From Clostridia bacterium (GTDB lineage Bacteria > Bacillota > DSM-521 > Neomoorellales > SLTJ01), in assembly GCA_004347685.1 (NCBI GenBank), contig SLTJ01000029.1, forward strand, positions 1-64,000: a stretch of 64,000 bases of DNA. The letters run 5' to 3'. Each line of letters begins with the position of its first letter. Position 1 is the stretch's first letter. The notes below the pieces were generated by a model that saw only the letters and a list, made by a program, of their open reading frames with translations, had not been told where the DNA came from and did no database searches. Below are positions 26,463 to 51,508 of the stretch, in pieces. The position numbers and the translations under genes were made by a program.

Positions 26463-26655
26463 AAGAACTCCCTCCCAGGTGTTAATGGTTGTATGGGCAC
26501 CAGGCCCCACTGCTTCCCCCTACAGCTTGCCATGCCTAATACATTGCAGCTCCGATCAATTATGTATTTGTAACGAGTATTACGCTTAATCCTCTATGTT
26601 GTACTATAGCAGGGCGCACAATTCAACCAGGGAATACCCTAGAAACAGCCACTAT

Positions 26656-27513
26656 TCATTTCACTCTGCCGAGGCTGACCGCCTCGCCAAAGAAACGTAC
26701 AGCGCCCGCGGCCAATAGGTCCCGGTAGTCCTCAAAGAGAATGGCTGCCTGTTCCCCTTTCCACCCATGCGGCAGTAACTCCAATGGCAAATCCGGGTCA
26801 AAGAAGGGGAACTTCCGGTATTCATCGCTCAACAGCACTCTTTCCAGAAAGCATTCGCTGTCAGGAATCGACCCCGCTTTAAGGTCTTTTTTCGTGCTTT
26901 CGTATTGCGGTTGGTACTTCTCCAGGAACGCCTGGTAGCGCTCATCAATTGCCTCCAGGTTCCAGCACTTGCTAACCAACTGCCTATTGTTGCCAAACCC
27001 TTCGTGGACCGCCGTAAAGATTTCTACGTATGGCTCTGCCCTCAGGTCTCTGACCGCCCTTTTTAGTTCTTCTTCAGCCCCGTAGGGTGATACCCAGGTC
27101 CCATGGTTCATGGAGCCGTAACCCAGCCAACTCAGTTCCTTCTTGAGCGAATCGCGTATGCCGCGTTTCTTTTCAGGGAGATGGTAGGTGACGATATGCC
27201 ACCTACCATCCCACCGGCGGTTGCGACGCCACCTGGGAAAAATTCTCTTCTCGCTTTCCTGCATTAGGCCCAAAGCCTTCTCTGACAGCCGGTAATAGCT
27301 GCGGTTCCCTTTACGCGTACGGACCAGCCAACCCTTTCGGGTCATCCGTGAAAGGGCAAGCCGCACCGCTTGTTCGGAAAAGCCAAGTTCGCTTAAGAGC
27401 CTGACCAGGGTCCCCGTCCAGATTTCACTAGCAGGATCCTCCAGGTAAACGTAGTCACCGTAAATAGTAAACAGGATTGACTGGGTGCGCACCAGCCCCT
27501 TGGGCCTGGGCAT
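26656..27513 (-). CDS. paaX: PaaX family transcriptional repressor
   Basis: PaaX proteins repress aromatic acid catabolic operons and are released by the CoA ester of the substrate. This one (285 residues) begins with a winged helix (RTQSILFTIYGDYV, then LVRLLSELGFSEQAVRLALSRM as recognition helix) followed by the PaaX C-terminal domain with WRHIVTYHLPE-like strand. ATG 27513 lies behind GAGGTGGAG. It is placed between the Zn-ribbon gene and the ligase on the same strand. Its probable effector is the CoA ester made by the ligase; this is inference. Confidence 0.88.
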   Translation of the reverse strand: MPRPKGLVRTQSILFTIYGDYVYLEDPASEIWTGTLVRLLSELGFSEQAVRLALSRMTRKGWLVRTRKGNRSYYRLSEKALGLMQESEKRIFPRWRRNRRWDGRWHIVTYHLPEKKRGIRDSLKKELSWLGYGSMNHGTWVSPYGAEEELKRAVRDLRAEPYVEIFTAVHEGFGNNRQLVSKCWNLEAIDERYQAFLEKYQPQYESTKKDLKAGSIPDSECFLERVLLSDEYRKFPFFDPDLPLELLPHGWKGEQAAILFEDYRDLLAAGAVRFFGEAVSLGRVK

Positions 27514-27541
27514 TAACAACTCCACCTCTGATCTTTAACGA

Positions 27542-27976
27542 CTATGCCAACTTGAAGCTGAATAAGACCCGGTCAAAGTGGTCGTTGGGTATGGGCTCCA
27601 CCTGAAACCGAACCCTTTTCCCAATTTCTACCTCCTCTGGTATAGCGTCGGCAATGCGGCTGAACAGCCGCAGACCATTGTCTAACTCTATTATAGCAAA
27701 AATGAGCGGCGGTTTGAAGCCCATCGGCACCCCAGATTCCTGAACCGAAAATGCGACTATGGTGCCTTCCCTGGGCACATCCTCCCACTTCATGTTATCA
27801 CTCATACAGTTCGGGCAGATGAACCTGGGTGGCCAGAACATTTGCCCGCAATCCTGGCAGCGGCTATTAACAAACCGCCCCTCTTTCAGGGCATCGAAAA
27901 AAGGATGCACGCGATTAAAATCGGCCGACTCCAATGGATAGGGGTCTATGGTGTATATGTAGTTATCCTGGCTCAC
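27542..27976 (-). CDS. Zn-ribbon/OB-fold protein (DUF35), thiolase partner
   Basis: This is a 144-residue acyl-CoA-binding OB-fold protein with a rubredoxin-like zinc ribbon, CQDCG and CPNC (about 40-58). Such proteins pair with an adjacent thiolase: BbsA/BbsB in anaerobic toluene degradation and the archaeal acetoacetyl-CoA thiolase complexes. The GTG at 27976 uses a GGGAGGG site inside the end of the upstream thiolase gene, with only four bases between the genes, so the two are co-produced. Confidence 0.88.
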   Translation of the reverse strand: MSQDNYIYTIDPYPLESADFNRVHPFFDALKEGRFVNSRCQDCGQMFWPPRFICPNCMSDNMKWEDVPREGTIVAFSVQESGVPMGFKPPLIFAIIELDNGLRLFSRIADAIPEEVEIGKRVRFQVEPIPNDHFDRVLFSFKLA

Positions 27977-27980
27977 CTGT

Positions 27981-29150
27981 TTAGTCCCTCCCGTAGATCA
28001 CGATAGTATGTTCCGGCATACCGCTGTTGGTGTGGGCCAGGCCGATCTTAGCGTCAGGTACTTGCCGTGGGCCAGCTTCACCCCGCAGTTGCCAGAAATT
28101 CTCTGCAGCCTGAGCCACGCCGGTCGCCCCCAAGGGATGCCCGCAGCCGATCAACCCACCCCTGGGATTGATCACAACCTTGCCGCCATAATCAGATTGC
28201 CCCGAGGCTACAAATTCTCCGCCGGCTCCCTTCTCACAGAACCCGAGCTCCTCGGTGGCTATTACCTCGGCTATAGTAAAGCAGTCGTGGACCTCGGCAA
28301 AATCAACGTCGTCAGCGGTGATGCCGGCCGACCCGTACGCGCTGGCCGCAGCCTTGCGTAAGGCCGGCCAGTCCTCATATCGCCCTTCAGGAGCGTTGGC
28401 CAGATTGAAGTTAGTGATTGCCTGGCCTGAACCTAGGATCCAAACCGGCTTATCCGTCAGGTCTCTGGCTCTGTCCTCCGGAGCCAGAATCACGGCCGCG
28501 GCTCCGTCGGTAATAGCGCTGCAATCAAAGAGCTTGAAGGGTGAAGTGATAGGCTTGGCGGAATTATACTTCGCGAGATCAATGGGGGTCGGCCATTGGG
28601 CATAGGGATTGTTGGCCGCGTGCCTGCGGTTCTTGATGGTCACCGCCGCCAACTGTTCCGGGGTGGTACCGTATTTGCGCATATGGGCCTGAGCAGCCAG
28701 GGCAAAGGTCGGCGGTGCCGTCAGCCCGTAAGCCCCCTCCCACTCCCGATCGATACCACACATCATGTTTAAGAAGGTTTCCGCAGCTACCGGGGTATTG
28801 AGTTTTTCCACTCCCAATACCAAGACCAGCTCGGCCATACCTGTGGCAATAGCGGCACTGGCCAGCCGGATGGCAACATTGCCACTGGCACACATATGCT
28901 CCACCCGGGCCGAAATAGAGGTCGGCTTTACCCCGACGGTCTCGGCAATTACGGACGAGATGTGGCTCTGGAAAGCGTTTCGTTCCGGCATCACCGTGCT
29001 GACTACAATGCCGTCAATATCCTGAGGCTTGACGGCACCCTTCACGCTGTCAAAAAGTGATTTCGCCGCCTCGGCAGCCAGATCGCGGAAGGTGGCCTGC
29101 CGTACTCCAAACTTAGTTATCCCCGCCCCTACTATGGCTACCCGTCTCAT
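27981..29150 (-). CDS. thiolase family protein (paired with DUF35 protein)
   Basis: This member of the thiolase superfamily (389 residues) is of the lipid-transfer/BbsB type and cleaves or forms 3-ketoacyl-CoA. The nucleophile lies in EHMCASGNVA (about C87), with the later EVHDCFTIAE and C-terminal GGLIGCGHPLGATG supplying histidine and the second cysteine region. The immediate DUF35 neighbour suggests a two-subunit thiolase acting on a bulky acyl-CoA. Confidence 0.88.
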   Translation of the reverse strand: MRRVAIVGAGITKFGVRQATFRDLAAEAAKSLFDSVKGAVKPQDIDGIVVSTVMPERNAFQSHISSVIAETVGVKPTSISARVEHMCASGNVAIRLASAAIATGMAELVLVLGVEKLNTPVAAETFLNMMCGIDREWEGAYGLTAPPTFALAAQAHMRKYGTTPEQLAAVTIKNRRHAANNPYAQWPTPIDLAKYNSAKPITSPFKLFDCSAITDGAAAVILAPEDRARDLTDKPVWILGSGQAITNFNLANAPEGRYEDWPALRKAAASAYGSAGITADDVDFAEVHDCFTIAEVIATEELGFCEKGAGGEFVASGQSDYGGKVVINPRGGLIGCGHPLGATGVAQAAENFWQLRGEAGPRQVPDAKIGLAHTNSGMPEHTIVIYGRD

Positions 29151-29162
29151 ATTATGCCCCCT

Positions 29163-29621
29163 TTACTTTGGCCTCCTGGCCAGCATAATCGTCTGTTTCT
29201 GCTCCTGTACTGTTTCGCCGCGATGATTAATTGCGTAGAGCTCGGCAAACACCAGGCCCCGGTCTTCCTTCTTCGTTTCCTGCTTACCCGCGATCTTCAA
29301 CTTGATATAGATAGTGTCACCGGGAAAGGTTGGTCCGGTGAACTTGAGAGAAATATCCATCACGGCCAGGGTGGTACCCTCAAACACCCCCATCTGGTTC
29401 TGCAGCCCGGTAGCGATAGCAGTTACCAGCAAGCCATGGGCAATCCGGGTCTTGAAGGGAGTAGTCTTGCCGTATTCCTCATCCACATGCAGCGGGTTGA
29501 AGTCTCCCGATAAGCCGGCAAAGGAAACGATGTCCGCTTCGGTAATGGTGCGCCTAGCGGAAATGAATTCAGCGCCCGCCTCAAAGTCATCAAAATAAAG
29601 ACCCCTGGGCAATCCAGCCAC
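29163..29621 (-). CDS. MaoC family (R)-enoyl-CoA hydratase
   Basis: This hot-dog fold hydratase (152 residues) adds water to an enoyl-CoA. The catalytic Asp/His motif is visible as SGDFNPLHVDEEY (about 38-50), followed by AHGLL. GTG 29621 lies behind GGAGGAG; a TTG three codons later is an alternative. It is sandwiched between the thiolase (12 bases) and the crotonase, so it probably belongs to the same beta-oxidation route. Confidence 0.87.
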   Translation of the reverse strand: MAGLPRGLYFDDFEAGAEFISARRTITEADIVSFAGLSGDFNPLHVDEEYGKTTPFKTRIAHGLLVTAIATGLQNQMGVFEGTTLAVMDISLKFTGPTFPGDTIYIKLKIAGKQETKKEDRGLVFAELYAINHRGETVQEQKQTIMLARRPK

Positions 29622-29657: not shown

Positions 29658-30440
29658 TTACCGACCCTTAAATTCTGGCTTCCGCTTCTGCAGGAAAGCT
29701 GAAGTGCCTTCCACAAAGTCCTCGCTGGCCGCCAGTATGGAAAGCCCCTGGGCTTCGACATCCAGCGCGGTGCGAAGGTCCATCCCTTCCGTATTGTAAA
29801 CGACAGCCTTGATCACCTGCAGTACCAGCGGGGGTTTCCGGGCCAGCTTGGCGGCCAGGCTCCTGGCTTCGGCCAAGACCTGGTCAGCAGGCACCGCTTT
29901 ATTGACCAGGCCCAGGGCTTCAGCTTCCTTGCCTGAAATCGGGTCGCCGAGAAGCAGCATCTCCTTGGCCTTGGCCGCGCCCATAATCCGCGGGAGCTTC
30001 ACCGTACCGCCTCCGGCCGGCAGAGCTCCGATGTTCACCTCTGGAACTCCCACCCGGGCATCGTCGGCCACGATCTGAAAATCGCAGGATAACATCAGTT
30101 CCAGGCCTCCGCCCAATACCAGACCGCGTACGGCCGCGATGACAGGCTTCTTGCACCTTTCTACCTCTGTGAAGGCCCGATGGAACTGCTGGCTGTAATC
30201 GTAGCCGGAAAATGGAGACGTAACCTTATTTACTTCCGAGATATCAGCTCCGGCACAGAAGAATTTTTCGGCGCCCGCAATGATAATGCTCTTGATCTGG
30301 GCATCTTCCTCCGCTTCCTTCAGGGCCTGCAGCAGTTCGGCCAGCAAGGCCTGGCTCAAGGCATTCATGGCCTTGGGCCGGTTCAAGGTTATAAGCAGCA
30401 CCGCATCTTCTTTTTCCACCAAAATGTTTTCGTAGCTCAA
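29658..30440 (-). CDS. enoyl-CoA hydratase/isomerase (crotonase family)
   Basis: This 260-residue crotonase fold protein begins SYENILVEKEDAVLLITLNRP. The oxyanion hole regions are FFCAGADISE and RGLVLGGGLELMLSCD, with the general-base Glu position kept in PEVNIGALPAGGG-like context. It should hydrate trans-2-enoyl-CoA or act as a related hydrolase/isomerase. TTG 30440 is chosen, with a G-rich site upstream; another TTG at 30458 is possible. It is placed directly after an acyl-CoA dehydrogenase, which would make its substrate. Confidence 0.87.
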   Translation of the reverse strand: MSYENILVEKEDAVLLITLNRPKAMNALSQALLAELLQALKEAEEDAQIKSIIIAGAEKFFCAGADISEVNKVTSPFSGYDYSQQFHRAFTEVERCKKPVIAAVRGLVLGGGLELMLSCDFQIVADDARVGVPEVNIGALPAGGGTVKLPRIMGAAKAKEMLLLGDPISGKEAEALGLVNKAVPADQVLAEARSLAAKLARKPPLVLQVIKAVVYNTEGMDLRTALDVEAQGLSILAASEDFVEGTSAFLQKRKPEFKGR

Positions 30441-30467
30441 CCCCTCGCTACCCCCCAAATGCAGAAA

Positions 30468-31607
30468 TTATTTTAGCAGGCTGCGCGCAATAATTACCCG
30501 CTGTATCTGGTTTGTACCCTCGAGGATCTGGGTTATTTTGGCGTCCCGCATATACCTTTCCACCGGGTAGTCCTTCATGTACCCGTAACCACCATGGATC
30601 TGCACAGCATCAATGGTCACCTTCATGGCTGCATCCGAGGATACCAGCTTGGCCATAGACGCTTCCGTCGCGAAGGGGAGGCCGTTATCAGCCTTGTAGG
30701 CGGCCTGGTAGATAAACAGCTTAGCTGCCTCAACTGCCACCTTCATGTCCGCCAGCATGAACTGGATGCCCTGGAATTCGCCGATAGGCTTGCCAAACTG
30801 GATACGTTCCTTGGCGTATTTTGTGGCCGCTTCCAGGGCTGCCTCGCCCACCCCAATGGTATAGGCGGCGGTAACGATCCGCCCGGTATTGATGGCATCC
30901 ATGGCGATCTTAAATCCCTGACCTTCCTCGCCTATCAGGTGAGCGATGGGGACCTCACAGTCCTCGAAAATCAGCTCCCGGTTCACCGAACCACGCATTC
31001 CCATCTTGTCTTCCTTTTTCCCAAAGGTAAAGCCGGGGGTTCCCTTTTCCACAATCAGGGCGCTCATGCCTCTGCTGCCCTTGCTAGGGTCGGTCTTTAC
31101 GAAAACCACATTGACCTCGGCCTCGCCACCGTTGGAGATGAAAATCTTATTTCCGTTGATTATGTACTTATCTCCGCGCTTCTGGGCTGTTGTCTGAACA
31201 GCCGCAGCATCAGTCCCAGCCGCAGGCTCCGTAAGGGCAAAGGCACACAGCCATTCGCCTCTGGCTAAAGGAGGAAGATAATGGGTCTTCTGCTCGGAAG
31301 TACCATAGTGCAAAATAGCATCCAGCCCTAGGAAATGGGCAGCCACCCCCATGCCGGTCGAGCCGCAGGCCTTGGCCAGCTCCATTATAACCAGGGCCGT
31401 ACTGAGGCTTCCCTGGCCCCCGCCGTCATACTCCTCCGGGATGTTAATGCCCATAAAGCCCATTTCGGCTATCTTACGAAAAAGTTCCCGATTGAACTCG
31501 GCCTTCTCGTCTGCTTCCTCCGCCTGCGGAGCTACTTCGTTTTCCGCGAAGCGACGGGCCGTTTGCTGCAACAACCTCTGTTCTTCTGTCAAAAAGTAAT
31601 CAAACAC
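30468..31607 (-). CDS. acyl-CoA dehydrogenase, copy 1
   Basis: This FAD-dependent enzyme (379 residues) oxidises acyl-CoA to enoyl-CoA. It shows the N-terminal helical domain, the flavin-binding FALTEPAAGTDAA, and the C-terminal catalytic loop QILEGTNQIQR, whose glutamate is the base in short-chain members. The natural electron acceptor (ETF) is not encoded in the window. The start is GTG 31607. A strong hairpin without T run separates it from the upstream amidohydrolase. Confidence 0.92.
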   Translation of the reverse strand: MFDYFLTEEQRLLQQTARRFAENEVAPQAEEADEKAEFNRELFRKIAEMGFMGINIPEEYDGGGQGSLSTALVIMELAKACGSTGMGVAAHFLGLDAILHYGTSEQKTHYLPPLARGEWLCAFALTEPAAGTDAAAVQTTAQKRGDKYIINGNKIFISNGGEAEVNVVFVKTDPSKGSRGMSALIVEKGTPGFTFGKKEDKMGMRGSVNRELIFEDCEVPIAHLIGEEGQGFKIAMDAINTGRIVTAAYTIGVGEAALEAATKYAKERIQFGKPIGEFQGIQFMLADMKVAVEAAKLFIYQAAYKADNGLPFATEASMAKLVSSDAAMKVTIDAVQIHGGYGYMKDYPVERYMRDAKITQILEGTNQIQRVIIARSLLK

Positions 31608-31696: not shown

Positions 31697-32560
31697 TTAC
31701 ACGTTCAGCTTCAATATCCTCTTAGCGTTGCTAAGCAAAACCTTTTCCATAATCTTTTCATCACTAGTTACGTACTTCTCAAAAGCCCCGAGCCACTGAT
31801 CATGGGTAATGCTAGGATAATCAGTTCCAAACATGAACTTATCCTGGTTCCTACCGACGATCTCTGCTTTGAGGCTGTCGCTAAAGTACTTCGGTGACCA
31901 CCCGGAAAGCTCGTTATAGACGTTCTGCTTATGCTGGAGGACGGCGATCATCTCTTCCTGCCAGGGCCACGAGGCATGGCAGCAGATTATGGTGAGGTTA
32001 GGGAAGTCCGCGGCCACATCATCAATGTACGGAATTGGTTGCGTGTACTTGAGCTTGAGTCCCATCCCCCCCGGTAGGCCGGCACCGATGCCGGTAAAAC
32101 CGGTATGGAATTGTACTGGCACCCCCAGGGAAACACATTCTTCGTAAATAGGATAGCATCGCCTGTCATTGGGGAAAAAGCCCTGGGCTATCTGCTGAAA
32201 CTTCACCCCGATCATACCCAATTCCTTGACGCAGCGGCGCAACTCCTGAATAGCCATCTCGCCCTTCCACGGGTCCACGCAGCAAAAGGCGCCGGCAAAG
32301 GCGTCGGGATAATCCTTGACCACCTTGGCCAGGTAATCGTGATCAAGCTTGGGTAGCCCGGTATTCGTCTCCGCATCCCAGCCGACCAGGATGCCTTTGA
32401 CATCCGCCTTGATAAAATCCTGGGCCATTTCCTCCTCAGTCTTGAAGGCCAGCTTAAACTTGTAATGTTTCTCCATCGCCTCATTGAACTTGGAGAGGCT
32501 GTCCCCCATCATGGGTTTGGTACTAAGGTGAGAATGAACATCAATAGCCCGCACAATCAT
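31697..32560 (-). CDS. amidohydrolase family metal enzyme (ACMSD-like TIM barrel)
   Basis: This metal-dependent hydrolase or decarboxylase of the amidohydrolase-2 family has 287 residues. The metal ligands are visible as DVHSH near the start, FHTGF in the middle, CHASWPW and GTDYPS near the end. Relatives decarboxylate (ACMSD, gamma-resorcylate) or hydrolyse ring compounds. The ATG overlaps the stop of the upstream thioesterase gene (ATGA). Within this operon it could open a ring or decarboxylate an intermediate; the sequence does not decide. Confidence 0.8.
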   Translation of the reverse strand: MIVRAIDVHSHLSTKPMMGDSLSKFNEAMEKHYKFKLAFKTEEEMAQDFIKADVKGILVGWDAETNTGLPKLDHDYLAKVVKDYPDAFAGAFCCVDPWKGEMAIQELRRCVKELGMIGVKFQQIAQGFFPNDRRCYPIYEECVSLGVPVQFHTGFTGIGAGLPGGMGLKLKYTQPIPYIDDVAADFPNLTIICCHASWPWQEEMIAVLQHKQNVYNELSGWSPKYFSDSLKAEIVGRNQDKFMFGTDYPSITHDQWLGAFEKYVTSDEKIMEKVLLSNAKRILKLNV

Positions 32561-32973
32561 TTCCCCCTTTCTACTAGATTAAGCATCCATTCCGGCACTG
32601 GAATAGGCCGGAACGTATTCTTGTCCACCACGACATGCTTGCTTCGTGCCCGGCAGCATAATACCTGGTTGTCCTTAAGTATCCTGTAGGTAAAACTAAA
32701 GCTGCTACGTCCGATACTATGCAGAGCGACCACCACTGTCAATACCTCATCATAATATGCCGGCGTCTTGAAGGCACAGGTTATGCTGACCATAGGCAAA
32801 AGGATCGCTTCTTCCCAGTGCCTCCATCCAGGTGCGTAGGTGCGAAAGAATTCCCGCCTTCCTACCTCCAGATATACCACATAACTGCCATGGTAGACTA
32901 TCCCTGCCGCGTCAGTTTCGGCCCAGCGTACCCGCACGTCGGTCTTGACCTCGGCCAGTATTTTACCAGCCAT
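32557..32973 (-). CDS. acyl-CoA thioesterase (4HBT, YbgC/FcbC type)
   Basis: This hot-dog thioesterase of 138 residues carries the family motif around the catalytic Asp, WAETDAAGIVYHGSYVVYLE. It would release a CoA ester, perhaps as a relief valve when CoA intermediates pile up, or be a true step. It overlaps the amidohydrolase by four bases and follows the 91-residue gene by six bases. Confidence 0.88.
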   Translation of the reverse strand: MAGKILAEVKTDVRVRWAETDAAGIVYHGSYVVYLEVGRREFFRTYAPGWRHWEEAILLPMVSITCAFKTPAYYDEVLTVVVALHSIGRSSFSFTYRILKDNQVLCCRARSKHVVVDKNTFRPIPVPEWMLNLVERGK

Positions 32974-32979
32974 CCCCCG

Positions 32980-33255
32980 CTAACCCTCCGAAACGGCTTC
33001 CTCCGGTTCAGCGGGAACAATACCGTGTTCCCGCTCATATTCGGCCTTGGCCTCCATCCAACGCTCCCTGACAAAGGCGTGGAAATCGGCCAAGGCTACC
33101 TTACCGGCGGCTTTGAACTCGTTCATGAGCTTGGTTAACACGCGATTCCGCGGCCCCTGGTCATCACAGTAGCCTCCTAGGTAGACGGAGTTCATGCAGA
33201 TGGTTGGGATTTCATCGGGCAAGTCCTTGGGCGGCTTCTTAAACCTTTTCGCCAT
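32980..33255 (-). CDS. 91-residue protein next to the nitrogenase-like pair, unknown family
   Basis: I do not recognise this protein. It starts with KRFKKPPKDLPDEIPTIC, has two cysteines (C20, C30) and a helical middle (LTKLMNEFKAAGKVALADF) with an acidic tail. GGGAGGAGGG lies well placed before the ATG, so it is a real gene. It directly follows the NifK-like gene, past a strong hairpin. By position it recalls the small delta subunits of the V- and Fe-nitrogenases (VnfG/AnfG, about 110-130 residues), but I see no clear sequence match. It could be a small subunit, a chaperone or an enzyme of the CoA route. Confidence 0.65.
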   Translation of the reverse strand: MAKRFKKPPKDLPDEIPTICMNSVYLGGYCDDQGPRNRVLTKLMNEFKAAGKVALADFHAFVRERWMEAKAEYEREHGIVPAEPEEAVSEG

Positions 33256-33314: not shown

Positions 33315-34718
33315 TTACTCATCACGGCGGTGGTAGGCCAGTGATTTCCACTTGCCAACCTCATGGTAGGTGTTCTCCAGCAGTCTACCCATCTGGCTGA
33401 GAAGGTACAAAGTACCCCGCATTCCAACTGATGGGTAGGGAACGAAGTTAAAGGCTCCCAGGACGGTCTGGTTGCCCACTACCGAGAGGTGCGGCAGGCC
33501 GGCCCCTTCAAAGAGGGATTTATCCGAAGTGGAGCCAAACACAAATTCCAGATTGCTGGCCGCCACCGTATCCAATATCTGGACATAAAGGGCATTCTCG
33601 AGGATAGTGGGGTTGAAATACTGCTGAAGGTCCTTCAAGTTATCCTTGGCCCGTACCACGGACTCGCGGCTCTCTCCGGTCATGGCTATGACCTGAGGGA
33701 AAATAGCCAAGTCGTAGTAAAGGAACTTAGCAAAGGAAGAAACCCAGGTGGCAGGACCGACCACGGCTGCATATTTGGTGGCCACCCAGTTAAGCAGCCA
33801 GGTAGCGTTATACATGAACTTAAGCTGGCGAAGTGCTTTCCGTTCCTCTTTGATAACCTGCTTTGCATTTTCCTCCCTGTCAAACACTCTGGCCACCCCG
33901 AGCAGCCAGTCTTCCGTGTTGCTAACTCCCAGGGGGATCGGCAAATCATACCCTATTTTCTCACCGCCGTTTTGCTGGAGGTAATAAGTCAGGCTTGGGA
34001 GTTCCTCATAAGTAAGGAACAGGTTATACCTAGCTTCGTTAAACCGCTCAATATCATCACGGCGGGTGCCACAGGTCAGGACGCAGTTTACTCTCAGTCC
34101 GATGGCCTCCAGAAGGCGCTTGATTTCGTCAACGTCATAAACCCAGTTGTTCCCGCCACTCAAGAAGGTGCCGATTAGGTTGACGGCCAAGGGGTCCGGC
34201 TTGTCAACCGGCCGGGCCAGGCGGCTCACTACACTGGAAAAAACGATGTCGGCCCCGGAGGCACTCAGGCCGTTAAAGCCGGCCGTATCCAACACCATGA
34301 TCGGAGTGTTGTATTTGGCTTCAAGGGAGCGGGAAATCTCTTCTATCGGATCGGAGATAAGTGACCCGCTGCAGCCCATCATAATGAACAATTGCTTGGG
34401 CTTCCAAGCGTTAAGCACAAATTCGGCCGAATTAGCCAGTTTATCCTTGCCGCCAAAGATTATATTGTTCTCGAGAAGATTAGTAGCTATCAAAGGCGTA
34501 TAGTTGGTAATAGCCTGATCTGACCTGGCCCAGCGGCCCATCCACCCGCAACCGCTAGAACCATGAATAAGAATAGCCGAATTCATAATCCCACTGGCCG
34601 CCATACAAGCCCCGCCAAGGGCGCAGTTCTCGGTGCTGTCGCGGCAAACGCTCTTCTCAACTGTCCCGCATGATGGTGCCCCATTAGCAAGAACCAAGTC
34701 TTCTGCTGGCATAGCCAT
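33315..34718 (-). CDS. nitrogenase component 1-like protein, NifK-like subunit
   Basis: This is a member of the NifD/NifK/BchN oxidoreductase superfamily with 467 residues. The three P-cluster-type cysteines of NifK appear at the right spacing: C32 in ENCALGGAC, C57 in HGSSGCGW, C116 in MMGCSGSLISDP (25 and 59 apart; 25 and 58 in the Azotobacter protein). IIFGGKDKL matches the superfamily FGG-x-x-KL block. ATG 34718 lies behind AGGAGGG, two bases after the stop of the NifD-like gene, so a 1:1 complex is expected. It is embedded in a beta-oxidation operon, which is not known for N2 fixation genes. A substrate cannot be named. Confidence 0.85.
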   Translation of the reverse strand: MAMPAEDLVLANGAPSCGTVEKSVCRDSTENCALGGACMAASGIMNSAILIHGSSGCGWMGRWARSDQAITNYTPLIATNLLENNIIFGGKDKLANSAEFVLNAWKPKQLFIMMGCSGSLISDPIEEISRSLEAKYNTPIMVLDTAGFNGLSASGADIVFSSVVSRLARPVDKPDPLAVNLIGTFLSGGNNWVYDVDEIKRLLEAIGLRVNCVLTCGTRRDDIERFNEARYNLFLTYEELPSLTYYLQQNGGEKIGYDLPIPLGVSNTEDWLLGVARVFDREENAKQVIKEERKALRQLKFMYNATWLLNWVATKYAAVVGPATWVSSFAKFLYYDLAIFPQVIAMTGESRESVVRAKDNLKDLQQYFNPTILENALYVQILDTVAASNLEFVFGSTSDKSLFEGAGLPHLSVVGNQTVLGAFNFVPYPSVGMRGTLYLLSQMGRLLENTYHEVGKWKSLAYHRRDE

Positions 34719-34719
34719 C

Positions 34720-36183
34720 CTAGATCCCTCCTAAACGGCCATAAAGAGTCGGCTTGGTATTTCTCTCTGCCATCCGGTTGGCGTTAAGGATGTCCCGAGC
34801 GAAGCGAGCCGCGCCGGTAAAGCCTGCACGCCGGCCAGGAGAGTTTCTATTCTTGTTGATATGGGTAGCGCTTATGACCCGCGGCACGTTAGAGGGATCG
34901 AAATACGGTTTGTTCCAGTCATCTCTGTCCACGGTGGCCCTGGGAAATACATCCCCCATATAGACGCCGATATCCTCTGGTTTCAGATCGAGCTCCTTCA
35001 TGACCTTCCAGCCGGTAAAACGCCGGTGAAAGGCATAAGTTGACCAGACTACCTCTGGATCAAACCCATACTCCAGGGCGAACATGGCATGATGAACCTT
35101 GCCCTTGATCTCAATGGGAGGAACATTGTAAATGATAGGCCGCATGCCCAGGTCGGCACACAGCCGGGCCCAGGCAATGGTCCGTCCTGCCGAGGACATG
35201 GGGTCAGCTCCATCAATGAGGGCGATCTTGCCGCTAACAGCCTTCTTGGCTTCTTCCCAGATATCCTTGATCTGTTCGTACTCCTCGGCTATCAACCCTT
35301 CAACTTTTTCTTCAATACCAAAATGCTCACCAACCTCCCGTAGCCAGTGGGAGATGGCGCTGACACCCAGGGGATTGAAGCCTTTTCCGTGAGGAATTTC
35401 CCACCGGTCCAGCATCTCTGTGGCCTGAGGATAGCCCCACTGTGGACATACTATGGTGTTAAACTCCGCCTCTGGCGCCCGCTTAAAATCATCTACCGTG
35501 GCACCTTGCACCAGAACCGAATTTACGGTAATACCCACCTTGTTCAATAGGCGCTCGAGTTCGTTGCTGTCGTCAGGGAACTTGCCCTGGTGGTGGATTT
35601 CCTTGGTTATACCGAGGATGTTTACCGAGTTGGGGATCTTGCGCTGGGGCGGCTCAAACAGCTCGGCCAGGGTCCGGGAGATATACATGTTGATCAACCC
35701 GGCCGCATAGTGGATGAAGCCAGGGGCCTCGCACACCAGAATGCGCTCCGCCCCCAACTGGGGCTCCATATCTTCGGCTACATCCTTAACCGGCTCCTTG
35801 GTAACCGCAGCACAGCAGGTAATAAGGATAAAGATAACCCGCGGTTTATAGATCTTGTCTACCTGGAGAATCGCTTCACGTAACTTCTCCTCGGCACCGA
35901 GGATTGTATCGCGCGCCCGCATATCTGTGGTAGGCGTATACACAAAAGGCGCGCCGTGGTACTGGCTTACATAGGTACACAAAAACTGGCGGTAGTTGCC
36001 TGAACACCCCTGCGGGCCGTGAATGAGGACCACACAATCGCGCAAGCCAAGGTGGTAATGGGATATCTTGGCAGGACACCAGTGGGAATAGTAACCTGGG
36101 AACATTTTCTCCCGTTCTTCGCTTTTTGGATCGGGTGTGATGAAATAGACTTCGCTAAGCCGCTTGAGTTCAATTTCGGCCAT
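34720..36183 (-). CDS. nitrogenase component 1-like protein, NifD-like subunit
   Basis: This protein (487 residues from ATG 36183, site GGGAGAAAG) has the NifD layout: C36 (SHWCPAK), C60 (HGPQGCSGNYR) and C123/C124 (ITCCAAVTKEPV) at P-cluster spacing, GAEEKLREAI as the superfamily block, C246 in NTIVCPQWGY where NifD has the cofactor ligand Cys275, and H441 before GFTGAARFARDI where NifD has His442 before GFAIFARDM. Both active-site ligands thus seem kept, unlike in BchN/ChlN. The stretch with Gln191/His195 in NifD is instead hydrophobic (HYAAGLIN), which argues against N2 as substrate. It would take electrons from a NifH-like protein encoded elsewhere. Confidence 0.85.
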   Translation of the reverse strand: MAEIELKRLSEVYFITPDPKSEEREKMFPGYYSHWCPAKISHYHLGLRDCVVLIHGPQGCSGNYRQFLCTYVSQYHGAPFVYTPTTDMRARDTILGAEEKLREAILQVDKIYKPRVIFILITCCAAVTKEPVKDVAEDMEPQLGAERILVCEAPGFIHYAAGLINMYISRTLAELFEPPQRKIPNSVNILGITKEIHHQGKFPDDSNELERLLNKVGITVNSVLVQGATVDDFKRAPEAEFNTIVCPQWGYPQATEMLDRWEIPHGKGFNPLGVSAISHWLREVGEHFGIEEKVEGLIAEEYEQIKDIWEEAKKAVSGKIALIDGADPMSSAGRTIAWARLCADLGMRPIIYNVPPIEIKGKVHHAMFALEYGFDPEVVWSTYAFHRRFTGWKVMKELDLKPEDIGVYMGDVFPRATVDRDDWNKPYFDPSNVPRVISATHINKNRNSPGRRAGFTGAARFARDILNANRMAERNTKPTLYGRLGGI

Positions 36184-36312
36184 GTTTCTTTCTCCCTTCC
36201 AAGCGTTCTCCTTCATTACGCTTTCCAGGAGCCCCCTTTCCCCGCCCTCCTGTACAGCTCGCGAGGCAAGGGGTAATCCTCATGGAATGCTATATGAAGT
36301 TGTTAAGGCTTT

Positions 36313-37170
36313 CTACTTACCGTACTTGTAGACTCCTTCCCCTGTCTTCGCCCCCAGCTTCCCGGCCCGGACCAGGTTAACTAGCAGCGGGCAGGGCCTG
36401 TACTTGGAATCAGCGAATTCCCGGTTCAGGGTGCGGATGGCCGCCAGGGTAGTATCCAGACCCATAAAATCAGCCAATTGCAACGGCCCCATGGGGAAAT
36501 TGGTGCCCAGCTTCATGGCCGTGTCAATATCCTCAGCCGTTGCCACCCCTTCCATCAGGGCATAGAAGGCTTCGTTGATCATGGGGGCCAGAATACGCGT
36601 CACAATGAACCCGGGAAATTCGTTTAACGTTACTGGGGTCTTGCCCATGGCCTTGGCCAGGTCTACAGTAATCGCAACCGTTTCGTCAGAGGTATTCGGA
36701 CTTTTGATAACCTCAACCAGTTTCATGACCTGGGCCGGATTGAAGAAGTGCATCCCCACGACCTTGTCAGGTCGCTTGGTGGCCGCTGACATCTCGGCAA
36801 TGCTCAGGGCTGTGGTATTGGAGGCCAGTACGGTTTCCGGCTCGCATAGTTGGTCCAGCCTGGCAAAGAGATCCAGCTTGACTTCCATCTTTTCCGGGGC
36901 TGCTTCAATGACAAAATCAGCACCGCCGGCGGCCTGGGCGAGATCAGAACGCGGAGTAATCCGGGACACCACGGCGTCCCGCTCCTCGGCCGACATCTTG
37001 CCCTTCTCGACCTGGCCGTTAAGCTGCTTGGCTATTCGATCCACGCCTTTCTTCGCGAATTCGTCGCTGACGTCGTACAGGCTTACCTTTAGGCCGGCCA
37101 TGGCCGCTACCTGGGCAATACCGTGGCCCATGATACCCGCGCCACAGACGCATACTTGCTTAAGTGCCAT
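36313..37170 (-). CDS. 3-hydroxyacyl-CoA dehydrogenase, copy 1
   Basis: This NAD-dependent dehydrogenase of the 3-hydroxybutyryl-CoA type has 285 residues. It has a Rossmann GAGIMGHGIAQ at the start, the Ser/His/Glu/Asn catalytic set (SNTTALSI, HFFNPAQVMKLVE with the histidine and glutamate, and NEFPGFIVTRILAPM) and the C-terminal dimer domain. ATG 37170 follows GGGAGG. The nitrogenase-like genes begin 129 bases downstream. Confidence 0.92.
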   Translation of the reverse strand: MALKQVCVCGAGIMGHGIAQVAAMAGLKVSLYDVSDEFAKKGVDRIAKQLNGQVEKGKMSAEERDAVVSRITPRSDLAQAAGGADFVIEAAPEKMEVKLDLFARLDQLCEPETVLASNTTALSIAEMSAATKRPDKVVGMHFFNPAQVMKLVEVIKSPNTSDETVAITVDLAKAMGKTPVTLNEFPGFIVTRILAPMINEAFYALMEGVATAEDIDTAMKLGTNFPMGPLQLADFMGLDTTLAAIRTLNREFADSKYRPCPLLVNLVRAGKLGAKTGEGVYKYGK

Positions 37171-37284
37171 ACCCACCAAACCTCCCTTCGTTATTTCATC
37201 TACGGGACCGTCTGCGGCCCCCTCTGTTGAGATAAATCACCTCCCCTTTCTTACGGCCAAACTGATAATGGTAAACGGAGGTCT

Positions 37285-38139
37285 TTAGAAGGCCTCACGC
37301 AGTACCCCCAGGGTATCCACCTCGGTCCGCAGCGCAGTTATCTCCACTACCGTAGGCGGCTTAGTGCCCGGTACCTCGTCGGGCACGATCAGATCAAAGG
37401 CGGTATTGTCTAGCACCTCTTCCACGGTGTGCCCGGGATGAACCGACTTCAACCGCATGTGCTTTGACGTCTCTTCAAAGTCCATCACGCATATCGGGGT
37501 AAAAACCAGGGTTGGCCCGTTGTTCTGAAAACCAAAATCCTTTTTCTCACCGTACTTGTTCTTGTATCCCATGGAACTGATGAAGTCTACCTCATCCACA
37601 AAGGTCCTGCGGTCATGCTTGCGAACAAAGTAATAAATCCGCTTCATGTTGTCATTAAAATTGAGGATCCCCATCAGGCCGGGTCCCTTTAGTTTGGGAT
37701 TCTTCCAGTCCTTACCAATTAAGGTATTATTTATATTACCGTACTTATCTATTTGCATCCCGCCAACGAAAAAGACGTTGGCCAGCTTTCTCGGCCCCGG
37801 ATTATATAGCTGGCAGTCATGATCGTACATCATGCCATCGGCAATATCGAAGAAACGGTACTCCCAGGGGAGAAAAGTTGGTGTAGACTTGGGTAGTTTT
37901 CTCTCCGCAATGTTCATGTAGTATCCACCGGTAATATATGTCAGGTCAGAAGCATGCAGTTTGACCGCCAGCAACACGCCATTGTATATTACGTCAGAGT
38001 ACACGCCTCCGCCAGCCGCTCCATCATCCGGACGTATTTGTCTCGATACCAGCACCGCGAGAAACTCGTTGGTACTGTATTCCCCAGTGTATTCCTCTTC
38101 CTTGGAGAGGTCACGATAGCAATCATCAAAGTATTTCAC
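37285..38139 (-). CDS. class I CoA-transferase-like subunit B (IpdB-like)
   Basis: This is the smaller subunit of a two-part class I CoA-transferase fold enzyme, with 284 residues. The conserved glutamate loop that carries CoA in true transferases (E-S-G type) reads YITGGYYM here, so the nucleophile seems absent. The C-terminal half (RTFVDEVDFISSMGY, SVHPGHTVEEV) recalls IpdB of mycobacterial steroid degradation, whose complex hydrolyses a ring instead of moving CoA. It follows subunit A by 11 bases. Ring-opening hydrolase is my favoured reading; an ordinary CoA-transferase is the alternative. Confidence 0.8.
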   Translation of the reverse strand: MKYFDDCYRDLSKEEEYTGEYSTNEFLAVLVSRQIRPDDGAAGGGVYSDVIYNGVLLAVKLHASDLTYITGGYYMNIAERKLPKSTPTFLPWEYRFFDIADGMMYDHDCQLYNPGPRKLANVFFVGGMQIDKYGNINNTLIGKDWKNPKLKGPGLMGILNFNDNMKRIYYFVRKHDRRTFVDEVDFISSMGYKNKYGEKKDFGFQNNGPTLVFTPICVMDFEETSKHMRLKSVHPGHTVEEVLDNTAFDLIVPDEVPGTKPPTVVEITALRTEVDTLGVLREAF

Positions 38140-38150
38140 GGCTCCACCCC

Positions 38151-39062
38151 CTATAGCATACTCTGGCGCAGTTCAAGCAGCCGCCTCATTCCACCAATGG
38201 CTTCCAGATACTCGTTATGATCCTTCGGACCGTATACATAGCGATCCATATAGCGCTTGAAGGCGTCAGCGTCCTCACCGGTACGCGCAGCTTCCGCTGC
38301 CGCTATATACTCCCTCACGTGATACCGGTCATGCATATAATACCCCTGTCCCTCCTCAGGATGGGCTCCATAAGGGATTTCAACCACGTAATCGGCCGCA
38401 ACCAAGCCAGCCAGGGTAACGATCCGCGGTTCACGGTTTATGTACTTATTAGGAATGAGTTCATCGCAGCAGGAAATTATGTGACGACGGGTAGCCCGGG
38501 CAATGATCCTCTCGGAGAAGACGCTGGCCTTGTGTATGACGTTACCGTACGGGTCGGCCTGTGCCGCGTAGATAAAAGAAACATCAATCGGGATAGGCGG
38601 TACGGCAATCCACCGCTGCCCGTTTACTTCTATTTCCCTTAAATCGGGATTGTACTTCGGAAGGTCGGTACCCACCCCCTGCTTGGTAAGCAAGTAAGGC
38701 ATGTTCCATCCGGCTGCCTTCATGGCACAGTGCCAGTGCTGAAAATCACATTCCCAAAAAAACAAGTCCTCTCCTTGCTCCATGGCCCGACGGAAGTTAG
38801 GAGCTATTGGGGCATAGTGCTGCAGCCCCATGTAGGTCGTCACCAGCTTCTTCACGCATCCGGCTCCGATCAACATGTCAACCCCGATCCCGCCGCCGAG
38901 GGTAACAACGGTGAGGTCCTTAACTCCGCGCTTTATCAGGGCCCTGATCAGGGCCATGGGTTCATTGAAAAGGATGAATCCGGATAAGCCCAGGGTATCG
39001 CCGTCCTTAACCAGCGATACGGCCTCCTCTGCGCTTATTACCCGCGAACTTCTTTCAGCCAC
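38151..39062 (-). CDS. class I CoA-transferase-like subunit A (IpdA-like)
   Basis: This is the larger subunit of the same heteromer, about 303 residues. It has the family start DGDTLGLSGFILFNEPMALI, LTVVTLGGGIGVDMLIGAG and DPYGNVIHKAS. The block around FFWECDF places an acidic residue where IpdA has its catalytic glutamate. GTG 39062 lies behind GAGAGGTG; a GTG nine bases earlier is within that site. In glutaconate-type transferases the A subunit has no nucleophile, so the function depends on subunit B. Confidence 0.82.
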   Translation of the reverse strand: MAERSSRVISAEEAVSLVKDGDTLGLSGFILFNEPMALIRALIKRGVKDLTVVTLGGGIGVDMLIGAGCVKKLVTTYMGLQHYAPIAPNFRRAMEQGEDLFFWECDFQHWHCAMKAAGWNMPYLLTKQGVGTDLPKYNPDLREIEVNGQRWIAVPPIPIDVSFIYAAQADPYGNVIHKASVFSERIIARATRRHIISCCDELIPNKYINREPRIVTLAGLVAADYVVEIPYGAHPEEGQGYYMHDRYHVREYIAAAEAARTGEDADAFKRYMDRYVYGPKDHNEYLEAIGGMRRLLELRQSML

Positions 39063-39088
39063 TATTTTCACCTCTCTTGTTCATTAGG

Positions 39089-39859
39089 CTAGCACTGGAC
39101 ACCCATAAAGAAACCACCATCAACACCAACGGCAGTACCGGTTATGTAGCTGGCGTCCGGAGAAGCGAGAAAGGCAATGACTTTACCCATTTCTGTTGGC
39201 TGGGCCGTTCTCCCCAGAGGTATCTGGGTAATGAACCCTTCCTTGATTTTATCAGGTATCTTGGCCGACATGGGGGTCTCAAAAAACCCGGGCATAATGG
39301 CATTGCAGGTAAAATCAGCGCCATCCTTAGCTGCGTAGCGGCCAAATTCCTTGGCTAGCGAGCGCGTCATACCAATTACCCCCATTTTGGAAGCGGAGTA
39401 ATTTACCTGCCCCACGTTACCAGCGGCGCCGCCCTTGGACGAAAAATTGATTACCCGTCCATACTTATTCTTGCGCATCTCCGGTAGGGCAGCCTGGGCA
39501 CAGAGGAAGGGACCTTTCAGGTTTACGTTGATTACGGCGTCCCATTCCTCCTCTGTCATCTTTTCAAAAAGGGCATCGCGATTGATTCCGGCGTTATTCA
39601 CCAAAATATCCAGGCGCCCAAATCTGGCCACCGTATCAGCCACCATTTTCTCAGCCTCAGCCTTATTGGAAACGTCGGCCTTGAGGCCAATAGCCTCCCC
39701 ACCAGCGTCGACTATGGCCCTAGCCACTTTCTCGGCATTCTCCAGCACCACATCCACTACTGCTACCTTGGCGCCTTCCCTGGCCAACTCCAGGCAGATA
39801 CCTTCGCCGATACCCTGCCCTCCACCTGTTACAATTGCTACCCTGTCCTGAAGTCTCAT
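39089..39859 (-). CDS. short-chain dehydrogenase/reductase (FabG-like)
   Basis: This NAD(P)-dependent SDR of 256 residues shows the TGGGQGIG cofactor loop, NNAGIN, the catalytic Ser (NFSSKGG) and Y-x-x-x-K as YSASK, then PGFFETPM. It would oxidise or reduce a hydroxyl group on a CoA-bound (perhaps cyclic) intermediate, as SDRs do in anaerobic ring degradation. ATG 39859 has GAGGAGGG upstream. Confidence 0.9.
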   Translation of the reverse strand: MRLQDRVAIVTGGGQGIGEGICLELAREGAKVAVVDVVLENAEKVARAIVDAGGEAIGLKADVSNKAEAEKMVADTVARFGRLDILVNNAGINRDALFEKMTEEEWDAVINVNLKGPFLCAQAALPEMRKNKYGRVINFSSKGGAAGNVGQVNYSASKMGVIGMTRSLAKEFGRYAAKDGADFTCNAIMPGFFETPMSAKIPDKIKEGFITQIPLGRTAQPTEMGKVIAFLASPDASYITGTAVGVDGGFFMGVQC

Positions 39860-39981
39860 CAAATAGCCCTCCTCACCAAGAAATTCATCCTCATTGGCAT
39901 TTGTCAGATCATGTAAGCCGAAAGCTATCCCGGAAGCCCGGCAACTCCCGGGACGGTCTGAATCAGTAACACGATGTCCGG

Positions 39982-40833
39982 CTAGTACTTGTAGAAGCCC
40001 AGACCGGTCTTGCGGCCCAGGTGCCCAGCCCGTACCATCTGCTTCAGAAGTGGCGCTGCCTTGAACTTCTCGCCAAACTCTTCCTCAAGGATGCCGAGCA
40101 CATAAACGACTACGTCTATCCCTACCAAGTCCATGAGGGCACAGGGCCCCTGCGGCATATTAGTACAATACACCATCCCGTCGTCAACATCCTTGGGGGA
40201 ATTGCCGTCCATTACTGTGTACGCAGCCTCGTTCAGATAAATATTCAACACGCGGCTGGTGATAAAACCAGCATAATCCTGAGCTACGGTAGGTACCTTG
40301 CCCAGGCTCTTCACGAATTCTTTAGCCGTCTCCAAAGTCTCCTCAGAAGTGCTGCGGCCGTGAACTAACTCAACACCCCGCATTACCGGGACGGGATTCA
40401 TGAAGTGGATACCAACCACCTTGTCAGGACGCCTGGTTGCGGCCCCAATGGCCGTAATCGGCAGTGAGGACGTGTTGCTGGCCATAATAGCTTCCGGCTT
40501 GCACTTTTGATCCAGTTGCCTAAAAATATCCACCTTTAGATCAAGCTTCTCGGGAACCGCCTCCACCACTAGGTCCGCATCCGCCACCACGTCAAATTCG
40601 GTGGTAGGGGTTATGCGCGCCAACACCTGCTCGGCCTCAACTGCCTGCATTTTGCCCTTCTCGACAAACTTGCTCAGGCTTTTCTTGATGGTGTCCATAC
40701 CACGGTTGACAAAACTATCCTCTACGTCCCTCATGGCTACCTGATACCCGGCCTGGGCCGTAACCTGTACAATACCGTTACCCATAGTACCGGCACCAAG
40801 GACCGCCACTTTCTTGATATTCTCTACGCCCAC
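39982..40833 (-). CDS. 3-hydroxyacyl-CoA dehydrogenase, copy 2
   Basis: This second 3-hydroxybutyryl-CoA-type dehydrogenase has 283 residues with GAGTMGNGIVQ at the N-terminus, the catalytic HFMNPVPVMRGVE and the C-terminal domain ending RKTGLGFYKY. It is clearly related to the copy at 36313 but not a recent duplicate. Two such enzymes plus an SDR in one operon suggest that more than one hydroxyacyl-CoA is oxidised. The start is GTG 40833. Confidence 0.92.
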   Translation of the reverse strand: MGVENIKKVAVLGAGTMGNGIVQVTAQAGYQVAMRDVEDSFVNRGMDTIKKSLSKFVEKGKMQAVEAEQVLARITPTTEFDVVADADLVVEAVPEKLDLKVDIFRQLDQKCKPEAIMASNTSSLPITAIGAATRRPDKVVGIHFMNPVPVMRGVELVHGRSTSEETLETAKEFVKSLGKVPTVAQDYAGFITSRVLNIYLNEAAYTVMDGNSPKDVDDGMVYCTNMPQGPCALMDLVGIDVVVYVLGILEEEFGEKFKAAPLLKQMVRAGHLGRKTGLGFYKY

Positions 40834-40869: not shown

Positions 40870-41310
40870 TTAGAGCGCCATCTCAAGGTGGATGAGGTCG
40901 CCGCGGTTAAAGCCTATCTCATCCAGGAAAGTCAGAACTGCGGCGTGCCGCCAGCTACACAGGATAAAAACCCGCGTACACCCTCTGCCCCGCAGGACCT
41001 TAAACAGAGTCTCAACCATCATTCGGCCCACCCCTCTATTTTGCCAGCCGGGGTGAACCGCCATCATTTCGATCCAGCCGATTTCATCCGTAACTCCAAA
41101 CTCTCCACCCTTGAGGTGGCCGAGCATATAACCAACAAGTTTACCTTCGGATTCAACCCCTATGCACAGCTCGGGATCCGTGGTGTAGATGTCCAGCTTC
41201 TTGCGCCAGTACTCAGACTCGCTATCCTCTCCTAGAGCCCGGTGGATTTCCGTGATCTGCTGATAGTCACCTATGGTTACCTGACGTAACACGAGTTCCG
41301 CGTTACCCAT
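40870..41310 (-). CDS. GNAT family acetyltransferase
   Basis: This is an acetyl-CoA-dependent N-acetyltransferase of 146 residues. The pyrophosphate-binding motif A is seen as HPGWQNRGVGRMMVETL (about 88-104). Its substrate is unknown; it may modify a protein of the operon, as acyl-CoA ligases are often regulated by lysine acetylation, but nothing in the sequence shows this. It lies 24 bases after the thiolase and just before the dehydrogenase. Confidence 0.8.
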   Translation of the reverse strand: MGNAELVLRQVTIGDYQQITEIHRALGEDSESEYWRKKLDIYTTDPELCIGVESEGKLVGYMLGHLKGGEFGVTDEIGWIEMMAVHPGWQNRGVGRMMVETLFKVLRGRGCTRVFILCSWRHAAVLTFLDEIGFNRGDLIHLEMAL

Positions 41311-41334: not shown

Positions 41335-42546
41335 TTACTCCTTCTCCCAGAGAGCAACGGTGCCCATGCCTGTTCCCTGGCAAAGGCCTACCAAGCCCGA
41401 CCTGGCATCCCGACGCTGCATCTCTCGTACCAGGATCATGGTCAGGTTGGCACCGGTAGCCCCAATTGGGTGCCCGATAGCAATAGAACTACCATTAACG
41501 TTGAAAATGTCCTTCGGCACCCCTATCTCTTTCATGAACACCAGCGGTATCGGGGCAAAGGGCTCGTGCAACTGGTACAGGTCAACATCGGAAGCCTTCA
41601 GCCCTTTCATCTCAAAGAGGCGCTTGGTGGCCGCCGTGGGCCCGTAGCCCATGATGTCCGGATCCACTCCGACTACGGTAGCTCCGGCAAATTTCGCCAG
41701 CGGTTTGATACCGAGCTCGTCAGCCTTCGCCCGCCGCATCAATACTACCACCCCGGCGCCGTCATTCAGCGGACAAGATGTACCGGCCGTGACCTTACCG
41801 CCTTCCTTAAAGGCCGGAGGCAGTTTACGCAATTTCTCTATTGATGTATCGGGACGGATGCACTCATCACGATCGAAGATCTGCGGCTGGTCGCCCTTGC
41901 GCTTGGGAGGGATCTCCAGAGGAATTATGTCCTCAAGAAATTTCCCTTCTTCGGTGGCCCTGGCTGCGCGTTGGTGCGTGGTGACCGCCCATTCCTCCAT
42001 TTCATCCCTGGTGATATTAAACATGTCAGCGAGGTTCTCGGCGGTCACGCCCATGCCGGTACCGGTAGGCGGGCAACTGAGGATCGGGGCATACATGCCG
42101 TCAAACAGTTCCTCGTTTAGCCATCTCCGGCCCCAGCGCAGGTTGTACAATTCGTAGGGCGCGTTGGTCATGCTCTCGGTCCCACCAGCAATGACCATAT
42201 CACACATGCCAGCAATGATCTCATGCGCCCCGGTAATGATGGCCTGCAGCCCGACCGCACAGGCCCGCTGCATGGTCATCCCCGGGACTTCCTTCCCCAG
42301 GCCGGCCTGCCAGGCCGCCAGCCGGCCCACATTGGGTTCCTCCTTGTTGCGGAAATACATCTGACCCATTACCACATCACCGATCTGACTCTTGACCTCT
42401 TCCAGACCGGCCCGTCGGACTACTTCTTTGATAACGTGGACCGCCAGATCAATGCCCAAAAAACCCTTCAGGGTAGCCCCATAATTACCTATAGCTGTCC
42501 GTGCAGTGGCTACCAATACAACATCGTCTTTTGTTTTTTCCCCCAC
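41335..42546 (-). CDS. acetyl-CoA C-acyltransferase (thiolase), copy 2
   Basis: This is a classical degradative thiolase of 403 residues. The nucleophile is in QRACAVGLQA (about C92), the base histidine in IAIGHPIGATG, and the C-terminal cysteine in LCQGTGMGTVALW. It releases acetyl-CoA at the end of a beta-oxidation round. It is the first gene after a strong promoter and inverted repeat (42577-42614) and so probably heads the transcript that includes the IpdAB-like and nitrogenase-like genes. Confidence 0.92.
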   Translation of the reverse strand: MGEKTKDDVVLVATARTAIGNYGATLKGFLGIDLAVHVIKEVVRRAGLEEVKSQIGDVVMGQMYFRNKEEPNVGRLAAWQAGLGKEVPGMTMQRACAVGLQAIITGAHEIIAGMCDMVIAGGTESMTNAPYELYNLRWGRRWLNEELFDGMYAPILSCPPTGTGMGVTAENLADMFNITRDEMEEWAVTTHQRAARATEEGKFLEDIIPLEIPPKRKGDQPQIFDRDECIRPDTSIEKLRKLPPAFKEGGKVTAGTSCPLNDGAGVVVLMRRAKADELGIKPLAKFAGATVVGVDPDIMGYGPTAATKRLFEMKGLKASDVDLYQLHEPFAPIPLVFMKEIGVPKDIFNVNGSSIAIGHPIGATGANLTMILVREMQRRDARSGLVGLCQGTGMGTVALWEKE

Positions 42547-43214: not shown

Positions 43215-43230
43215 CAATTCCACCTTCCAT

Positions 43231-48486: not shown

Positions 48487-48550
48487 TTCGCTCCTCCCTT
48501 TCAAAACCTTTTTCGCCTTTGGCCTCGGCACGCAATGAAAAATAGTTACC

Positions 48551-49777: not shown

Positions 49778-49898
49778 GACTATTCAGCCTCCCCGTGTCC
49801 TGTTTTACTCGCCCTCGGGTTACCCGGAAGCAAAACATACTATGCACATTAGCGTATTGCCTCTGCCTTTCTCCTTCTGCCTTTCCCCCGTTGTGAAG

Positions 49899-51476: not shown

Positions 51477-51508
51477 GTCAGCGCCTCCTTTCTTGCCTCC
51501 CCACCAGA

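Follow-up and report, generated by a model that had tools for sequence, protein, structure and literature searches.

What could a pair of nitrogenase-like genes be doing inside a run of genes for CoA-thioester catabolism? We examined this question for a locus of a Clostridia bacterium, in a window (the whole stretch of DNA analysed) of 64,000 nucleotides from contig C9. To our knowledge, the nitrogenase-like enzymes described so far act on N2, tetrapyrroles or sulfur compounds, and among 5.39 million open papers none was found that describes such an arrangement, whether the nitrogenase-like genes were sought in connection with benzoyl-CoA, with beta-oxidation, or with aromatic degradation. Many nitrogenase-like genes are of unknown role, and some of these are linked to sulfur metabolism (Dos Santos 2012, PMC3464626). 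The reading that we favor, with a probability of about 0.6, is that the two proteins form the catalytic component of an ATP-driven nitrogenase-like reductase from a rare catabolic clade; this enzyme would carry a NifB-derived cofactor, and its substrate would be an acid activated with CoA, probably a cyclic or aromatic one.

The gene pair and its surroundings

The preliminary description had placed two adjacent genes in the nitrogenase component 1 superfamily. Both open reading frames were found on the minus strand, with the K gene 1 bp downstream of the D gene (Table 1), and the pair is a member of that superfamily. PF00148 was the sole Pfam family matched by either protein, with 191.4 bits for D and 195.9 bits for K against a cut-off of 28.6 (E-values of 1e-57 and 3e-56), and hence the profiles did not place the proteins outside the superfamily. 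The PDB sequence matches were Fe, V, and Mo nitrogenases, NifEN, BchB, and methylthio-alkane reductase (MAR). Foldseek searches with AlphaFold models matched nitrogenase, MAR, and DPOR chains at a probability of 1.00; the models were built from 3 to 4 sequences, had modest pLDDT values (67 and 64), and were adequate for the fold only. In the case of the NCBIfam profiles, the top scores were weak (NifE, BchB, and nitrogenase alpha, with NifE first for both proteins) and all were far under the cut-offs, so neither protein was assigned to a known equivalog. The CfbD profile (TIGR03282) gave 34 bits versus a cut-off of 268, and the pair has two subunits, whereas CfbD is a single D-type protein. 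Matches to the class I benzoyl-CoA reductase families (PF06050/PF01869) were absent. Within the D gene, the ATG at 36183 is in frame and follows a GGGGAG; it coincides with the end coordinate given earlier and, as judged from the sequence, is a likelier start than 36216.

As previously described, CoA-thioester catabolic genes flanked the pair on both sides and on the same strand, and profile matches supported their identities. From 45692 down to 25122 no gap exceeded 145 bp apart from the 341 bp that follow the K gene; this interval contained a 91-aa open reading frame that had no relative among the fetched loci. The run is likely to be one operon, with space left for internal promoters, and promoter and terminator scans gave results at chance level. 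NifH (PF00142) was found neither in the window nor elsewhere on contig C9. The neighbors that had been likened to IpdAB did form a CoA-transferase-fold pair, but lacked the defining residues of either IpdAB or a CoA-transferase. Specifically, subunit A has Phe in place of the catalytic IpdA Glu, which is Ala in 6coj_A, apparently a Glu-to-Ala variant of 6co6_A, and subunit B has Gly at the position aligned with the catalytic Glu54 of glutaconate CoA-transferase. Because both catalytic glutamates were missing, the ring-cleavage clue drawn from this pair failed. Another CoA-transferase-fold pair, 28 to 30% identical to that of the window, directly follows nifB on contig C25 (L069:5276-8324). Upstream of the run and beyond a transposase, positions 47065-51638 of the window contain two UbiD-family decarboxylases and an MFS transporter, which are possibly part of the same aromatic-acid island.

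Table 1. Genes of the run around the D/K pair, in the direction of transcription, and tandem NifH-like genes of the same genome
Feature	Position	Strand	Evidence and remarks
Acyl-CoA dehydrogenase	44553..45692	-	PF00441
Thiolase	43231..44436	-	PF00108
Isochorismatase-family hydrolase	42645..43250	-	PF00857
Thiolase	41335..42546	-	PF00108
GNAT acetyltransferase	40870..41310	-	45% identity to the gene immediately upstream of D in SKS3.bin89
3-Hydroxyacyl-CoA dehydrogenase 2	39982..40833	-	PF02737
Short-chain dehydrogenase	39089..39862	-	PF13561
CoA-transferase-fold subunit A	38151..39071	-	PF01144; aligned to 6co6_A and 6coj_A
CoA-transferase-fold subunit B	37285..38139	-	PF01144; aligned to 1poi_B
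3-Hydroxyacyl-CoA dehydrogenase, directly upstream of D	36313..37179	-	PF02737/PF00725; relatives at C18, C45, and SKS3.bin89 loci
D-type subunit, nitrogenase-like reductase	34720..36216	-	498 aa; PF00148, 191 bits; alignments; tree
K-type subunit	33315..34718	-	467 aa; PF00148, 196 bits; alignments; tree
91-aa open reading frame between K and thioesterase	32980..33255	-	
4HBT acyl-CoA thioesterase	32557..32973	-	PF13279, TIGR00051
Amidohydro_2 protein	31697..32560	-	PF04909; 75% identity to the D-adjacent gene on contig C37
Acyl-CoA dehydrogenase	30468..31607	-	PF00441
Enoyl-CoA hydratase (ECH)	29658..30458	-	PF00378; 69% identity to the C45-locus ECH
MaoC-type hydratase	29163..29621	-	PF01575
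SCP2/BbsB-type thiolase	27981..29150	-	PF22691; relatives at C37 and C20 loci
ChsH2/BbsA-type OB-fold partner	27542..27976	-	PF01796/PF12172
PaaX-family regulator	26656..27525	-	PF07848/PF20803/PF08223
Phenylacetate-CoA-ligase-like enzyme	25122..26510	-	PF14535; TIGR02155, 237 bits (cut-off 646); 57% identity to the C45-locus ligase
Tandem NifH-like H1/H2	L017:10153-11868, L018:6338-8097, L019:16286-17548		Same genome

Cluster ligands and phylogenetic position

In the alignments, three P-cluster-type cysteines were present in each subunit, namely, Cys47, Cys71, and Cys134 of D (498-aa numbering) and Cys32, Cys57, and Cys116 of K, as in a cluster at the D/K interface. The residue aligned with the NifD ligand Cys275 was Cys257, and His452 was located a few columns away from NifD His442. 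Residues Gln191 and His195 of N2-fixing NifD were replaced by Ala and Asn, respectively. Two relatives deviated from this pattern: the K protein of contig C45 has Asp in place of two of the cysteines, and the D protein of Bacillota bacterium SKS3.bin89 has Phe at the Cys257/Cys275-equivalent site. Because these ligands were missing, cofactor content may vary inside the clade. NifB is encoded in both genomes.

To place the pair, trees were built from 41 proteins and repeated with 37 after the long Bch branches were removed. The D clade had 6 rows and the K clade had 7; MAR-like Group IV pairs from Chlorohelix and one Bacillota genome stood in for MarDK, and no MarDK, IsrDK, or CfbD sequence was among the rows. 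D and K each formed a fully supported clade, and the internal orders of the two clades were congruent. Both fell outside NifDK/EN, VnfDK, the sampled Group IV pairs, and BchNB/BchYZ (which had long branches), so the phylogenetic check proposed earlier separated both proteins from the families sampled. The sister of the D clade was a Nostoc gene that adjoins vnfDK and likely encodes an assembly protein. The pair belongs to a branch of the nitrogenase family that is rare and had not been placed before.

The position of the clade also bears on whether the pair carries out a reductive bond cleavage like that of MAR, in which a thioether, ether, hydroxyl, or similar group would be removed from a CoA-linked substrate with no ring reduction. 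MAR cleaves C-S bonds with the same six P-cluster cysteines and a Cys ligand, and it was near the top of the PDB and Foldseek matches; in addition, the genome already has a class I benzoyl-CoA reductase for ring reduction (see below). However, joining the D clade to the sampled Group IV D subunits was rejected (AU p 0.014), and the Group IV loci examined have O-acetylhomoserine sulfhydrylase or methyltransferase neighbors, which the window lacks. We consider bond cleavage an unlikely explanation.

Related loci in this and other genomes

A PF00148 search of the genome returned 11 matches, which corresponded to a nif locus (C21) and to D/K pairs on C9 (the window), C18, C20, and C37/C45; judging from the contig ends, C37 and C45 appear to be joined as one locus. 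All four non-nif loci had acyl-CoA genes nearby, and three of them (C18, C20, and C37/C45) carried tandem NifH-like genes, H1 and H2 (PF00142). The gene orders were TetR, H1, H2, D, K, 3-hydroxyacyl-CoA dehydrogenase (3HCDH), and carboxyltransferase on C18; D, K, H1, H2, acyl-CoA dehydrogenase, OB protein, and SCP2 thiolase on C20; amidohydrolase, D, CoA ligase, B12 mutase, thiolase, OB protein, acyl-CoA dehydrogenase, hydratase, PrpD, AOR, H1, and H2 on C37; and K, ligases, 3HCDH, and hydratase on C45 (the CoA ligase names on C37 and C45 come from sequence reading and similarity). Between the window and C37/C45, identities were 50% for D, 49% for K, 75% for the amidohydrolase, 69% for ECH, and 57% for the ligase. 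Contig C18 also contains repeated open reading frame fragments (VSISLGDLVPWP / FNLPWRFGAVAT) by a transposase-like gene (L066:8953-19001), which suggested a large CRISPR-like array.

The H1 and H2 proteins were of two distinct types, with the motifs GCSPK (Ser for Asp) and GCDPK, respectively, and with clade supports of 98/97 and 100/99. The two cysteines of the [4Fe-4S] cluster are present in both types, as are the Walker A lysines, and H1 and H2 possibly form a heterodimeric Fe protein. Complete H1/H2 pairs were found on C18 and C20. In the case of C37/C45, H2 was split at the contig break (C37:17500-17561, the L019 end, and C45, L020:12470-12531), where the ends resemble the inverted repeats of an insertion sequence and an 8-bp direct repeat, GTTTGTTT, occurs. 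This damage and the lack of NifH on contig C9 would fit a passenger or decaying paralogue, such that the class I enzyme reduces the ring and the window pair is inactive or has a role unrelated to its neighbors. The intact D and K frames, the conserved ligands, the 1-bp spacing, and the two complete H1/H2 pairs argue against decay, and we regard it as very improbable.

A further alternative is that the pair is a scaffold like NifEN or VnfEN, on which a metal cluster destined for another enzyme would be built or carried. The NifE profile scores and the Nostoc sister gene point in this direction. However, a scaffold would hardly require four paralogous pairs, each at a locus of its own and three of them accompanied by H1/H2 genes, and both the catabolic context and the presence of a pair in SKS3.bin89 without other component 1 genes also speak against a maturase, which we judge improbable.

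We also examined whether the amidohydrolase was specific to D/K loci, and this idea was ruled out: operon pieces that have no D/K genes contain copies with 91% (C7) and 45 to 50% (C46) identity. One piece without D/K (L131:10876-13915) contains an amidohydrolase, a short-chain dehydrogenase, and an acyl-CoA dehydrogenase with 91%, 77%, and 48% identity to the window genes, and another (L132:5939-9431) contains an amidohydrolase (45%) and a 3HCDH (49%).

Among 398 sampled genomes of the phylum, the clade was detected in only one other genome at the thresholds used. A K-based scan of the GTDB collection identified this distantly related genome as SKS3.bin89 and also yielded three Melainabacteria/Gastranaerophilales contigs; no relative turned up when genomes were scanned with the D alignment, viral contigs gave none either, and the plasmid matches listed were nif, vnf, and bch loci and one MAR-like locus. 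In SKS3.bin89, the order was GNAT, D, K, benzoate-CoA ligase (TIGR02262, 655 bits versus a cut-off of 375), Had-like alcohol dehydrogenase (ADH; top match TIGR03201, 279.7, under the cut-off of 338.65), 3HCDH, ECH, and FadE, and the GNAT protein was 45% identical to that of the window. The D/K pair was the sole PF00148 pair found there, despite the presence of NifB. Because this genome is only 83% complete, the missing nifEN or nifH could be a gap. The preliminary description had let its reading depend on conservation of the neighbors in related genomes, and such conservation was found at three more loci in this genome and in SKS3.bin89. The Melainabacteria relatives were 38 to 39% identical in K, and their loci showed no CoA genes nearby. 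One of them (L051:6933-10744) has an H-D-K arrangement of the same clade without CoA genes nearby, and in another (L049) the K gene adjoins an aminomutase-type radical SAM gene.

Proposed function and comparison with known systems

Taken together, the acyl-CoA context that recurs among the loci, the cluster ligands, NifB, and the Fe-protein pairs are best read as signs of an ATP-driven, cluster-containing reductase with a catabolic role. In such an enzyme, an Fe protein from the H1 and H2 genes of the other loci, possibly an H1-H2 heterodimer, would act in trans, and electron transfer coupled to ATP hydrolysis would proceed from it to an Fe-S cluster of the P-cluster type between D and K. The electrons would then reach a NifB-derived cofactor in D, for which Cys257 and probably a His near the C terminus (His452 or one close to it) would be the ligands, and this cofactor would reduce an unreactive CoA-activated acid; the reduced product would be taken up by the beta-oxidation enzymes encoded in the run. 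The benzoate-CoA ligase and Had-like genes of SKS3.bin89 and the PaaK-like ligase and PaaX genes of the window favored a cyclic or aromatic substrate, the neighbor genes being the sole source of this assignment. Counting against the reductase reading are the lack of NifH at the window locus, the presence of several neighbor types (the amidohydrolase included) in pieces without D/K, the Melainabacteria relatives without CoA genes, the ligands missing from two members of the clade, and the likely assembly gene of Nostoc as the nearest outside relative.

The earlier proposal of a metal-cluster reductase for an activated ring or bond thus gained from the family, context, recurrence, and P-cluster and cofactor cysteines, and its ring-cleavage hint was weakened. 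Its suggestion of a third solution to benzoyl-CoA reduction, taken as a stand-alone one, was not supported, because both genomes already encode a class I benzoyl-CoA reductase, which the D/K pair is therefore not replacing. In this genome, BcrB and BcrC scored above the cut-off on C18, where their cluster lies some 7.5 kb away from the H1 gene, and BzdN and BzdO did so in SKS3.bin89. The organism of the window thus has aromatic metabolism, which also counts for the favored reading. The pair may act on a different activated ring, or on a C-O or C-S bond. It is an unlikely prospect that the pair defines a third enzyme class that dearomatizes or otherwise reduces aryl or alicyclic acyl-CoA thioesters with a nitrogenase-type cluster and a heterodimeric H1-H2 Fe protein. 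If a carbon-catabolism clade does exist, it would widen the known chemistry of nitrogenase-type metal clusters and provide a new ATP-driven route for degrading stable organic acids without oxygen, and the tandem diverged NifH pair, if heterodimeric, would be a new form of Fe protein.

Class I benzoyl-CoA reductases (Bcr/Bzd) carry out ATP-driven, low-potential aryl-CoA reduction with a two-component plan; the plan of the window pair would be analogous, but the protein families are unrelated. DPOR and COR (BchNB and BchYZ), which reduce a ring C=C bond with ATP and an Fe protein, belong to the same superfamily and are the nearest precedent for ring chemistry, whereas the window pair is in a different clade, has the full cysteine set, and has no tetrapyrrole genes nearby. 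With NifDK, NifEN, and VnfEN, the pair shares the fold, the P-cluster cysteines, and the Cys275 equivalent. Unlike NifDK, it lies outside a nif operon, in a genome with a separate nif set, and lacks Gln191 and His195. The MAR structure (PMC12552129) contains a P-cluster and an [Fe8S9C] cluster; it has six P-cluster cysteines and a Cys ligand, and its His is located in a loop other than that of NifD. The window pair resembles MarHDK in its component 1 fold, six P-cluster cysteines, Cys ligand as for [Fe8S9C], H/D/K plan, and NifB-type maturase. It differs in lacking an adjacent H or B gene, in forming a clade separate from the sampled MAR-like pairs, and in being located beside acyl-CoA genes, whereas those pairs are beside sulfur genes. 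Finally, the isethionate reductase IsrHDK (PMC11423573) is likewise nitrogenase-like, with a metabolic, non-N2-fixing role; IsrD lacks Cys275, whereas the window D protein has Cys257, and the gene contexts differ.
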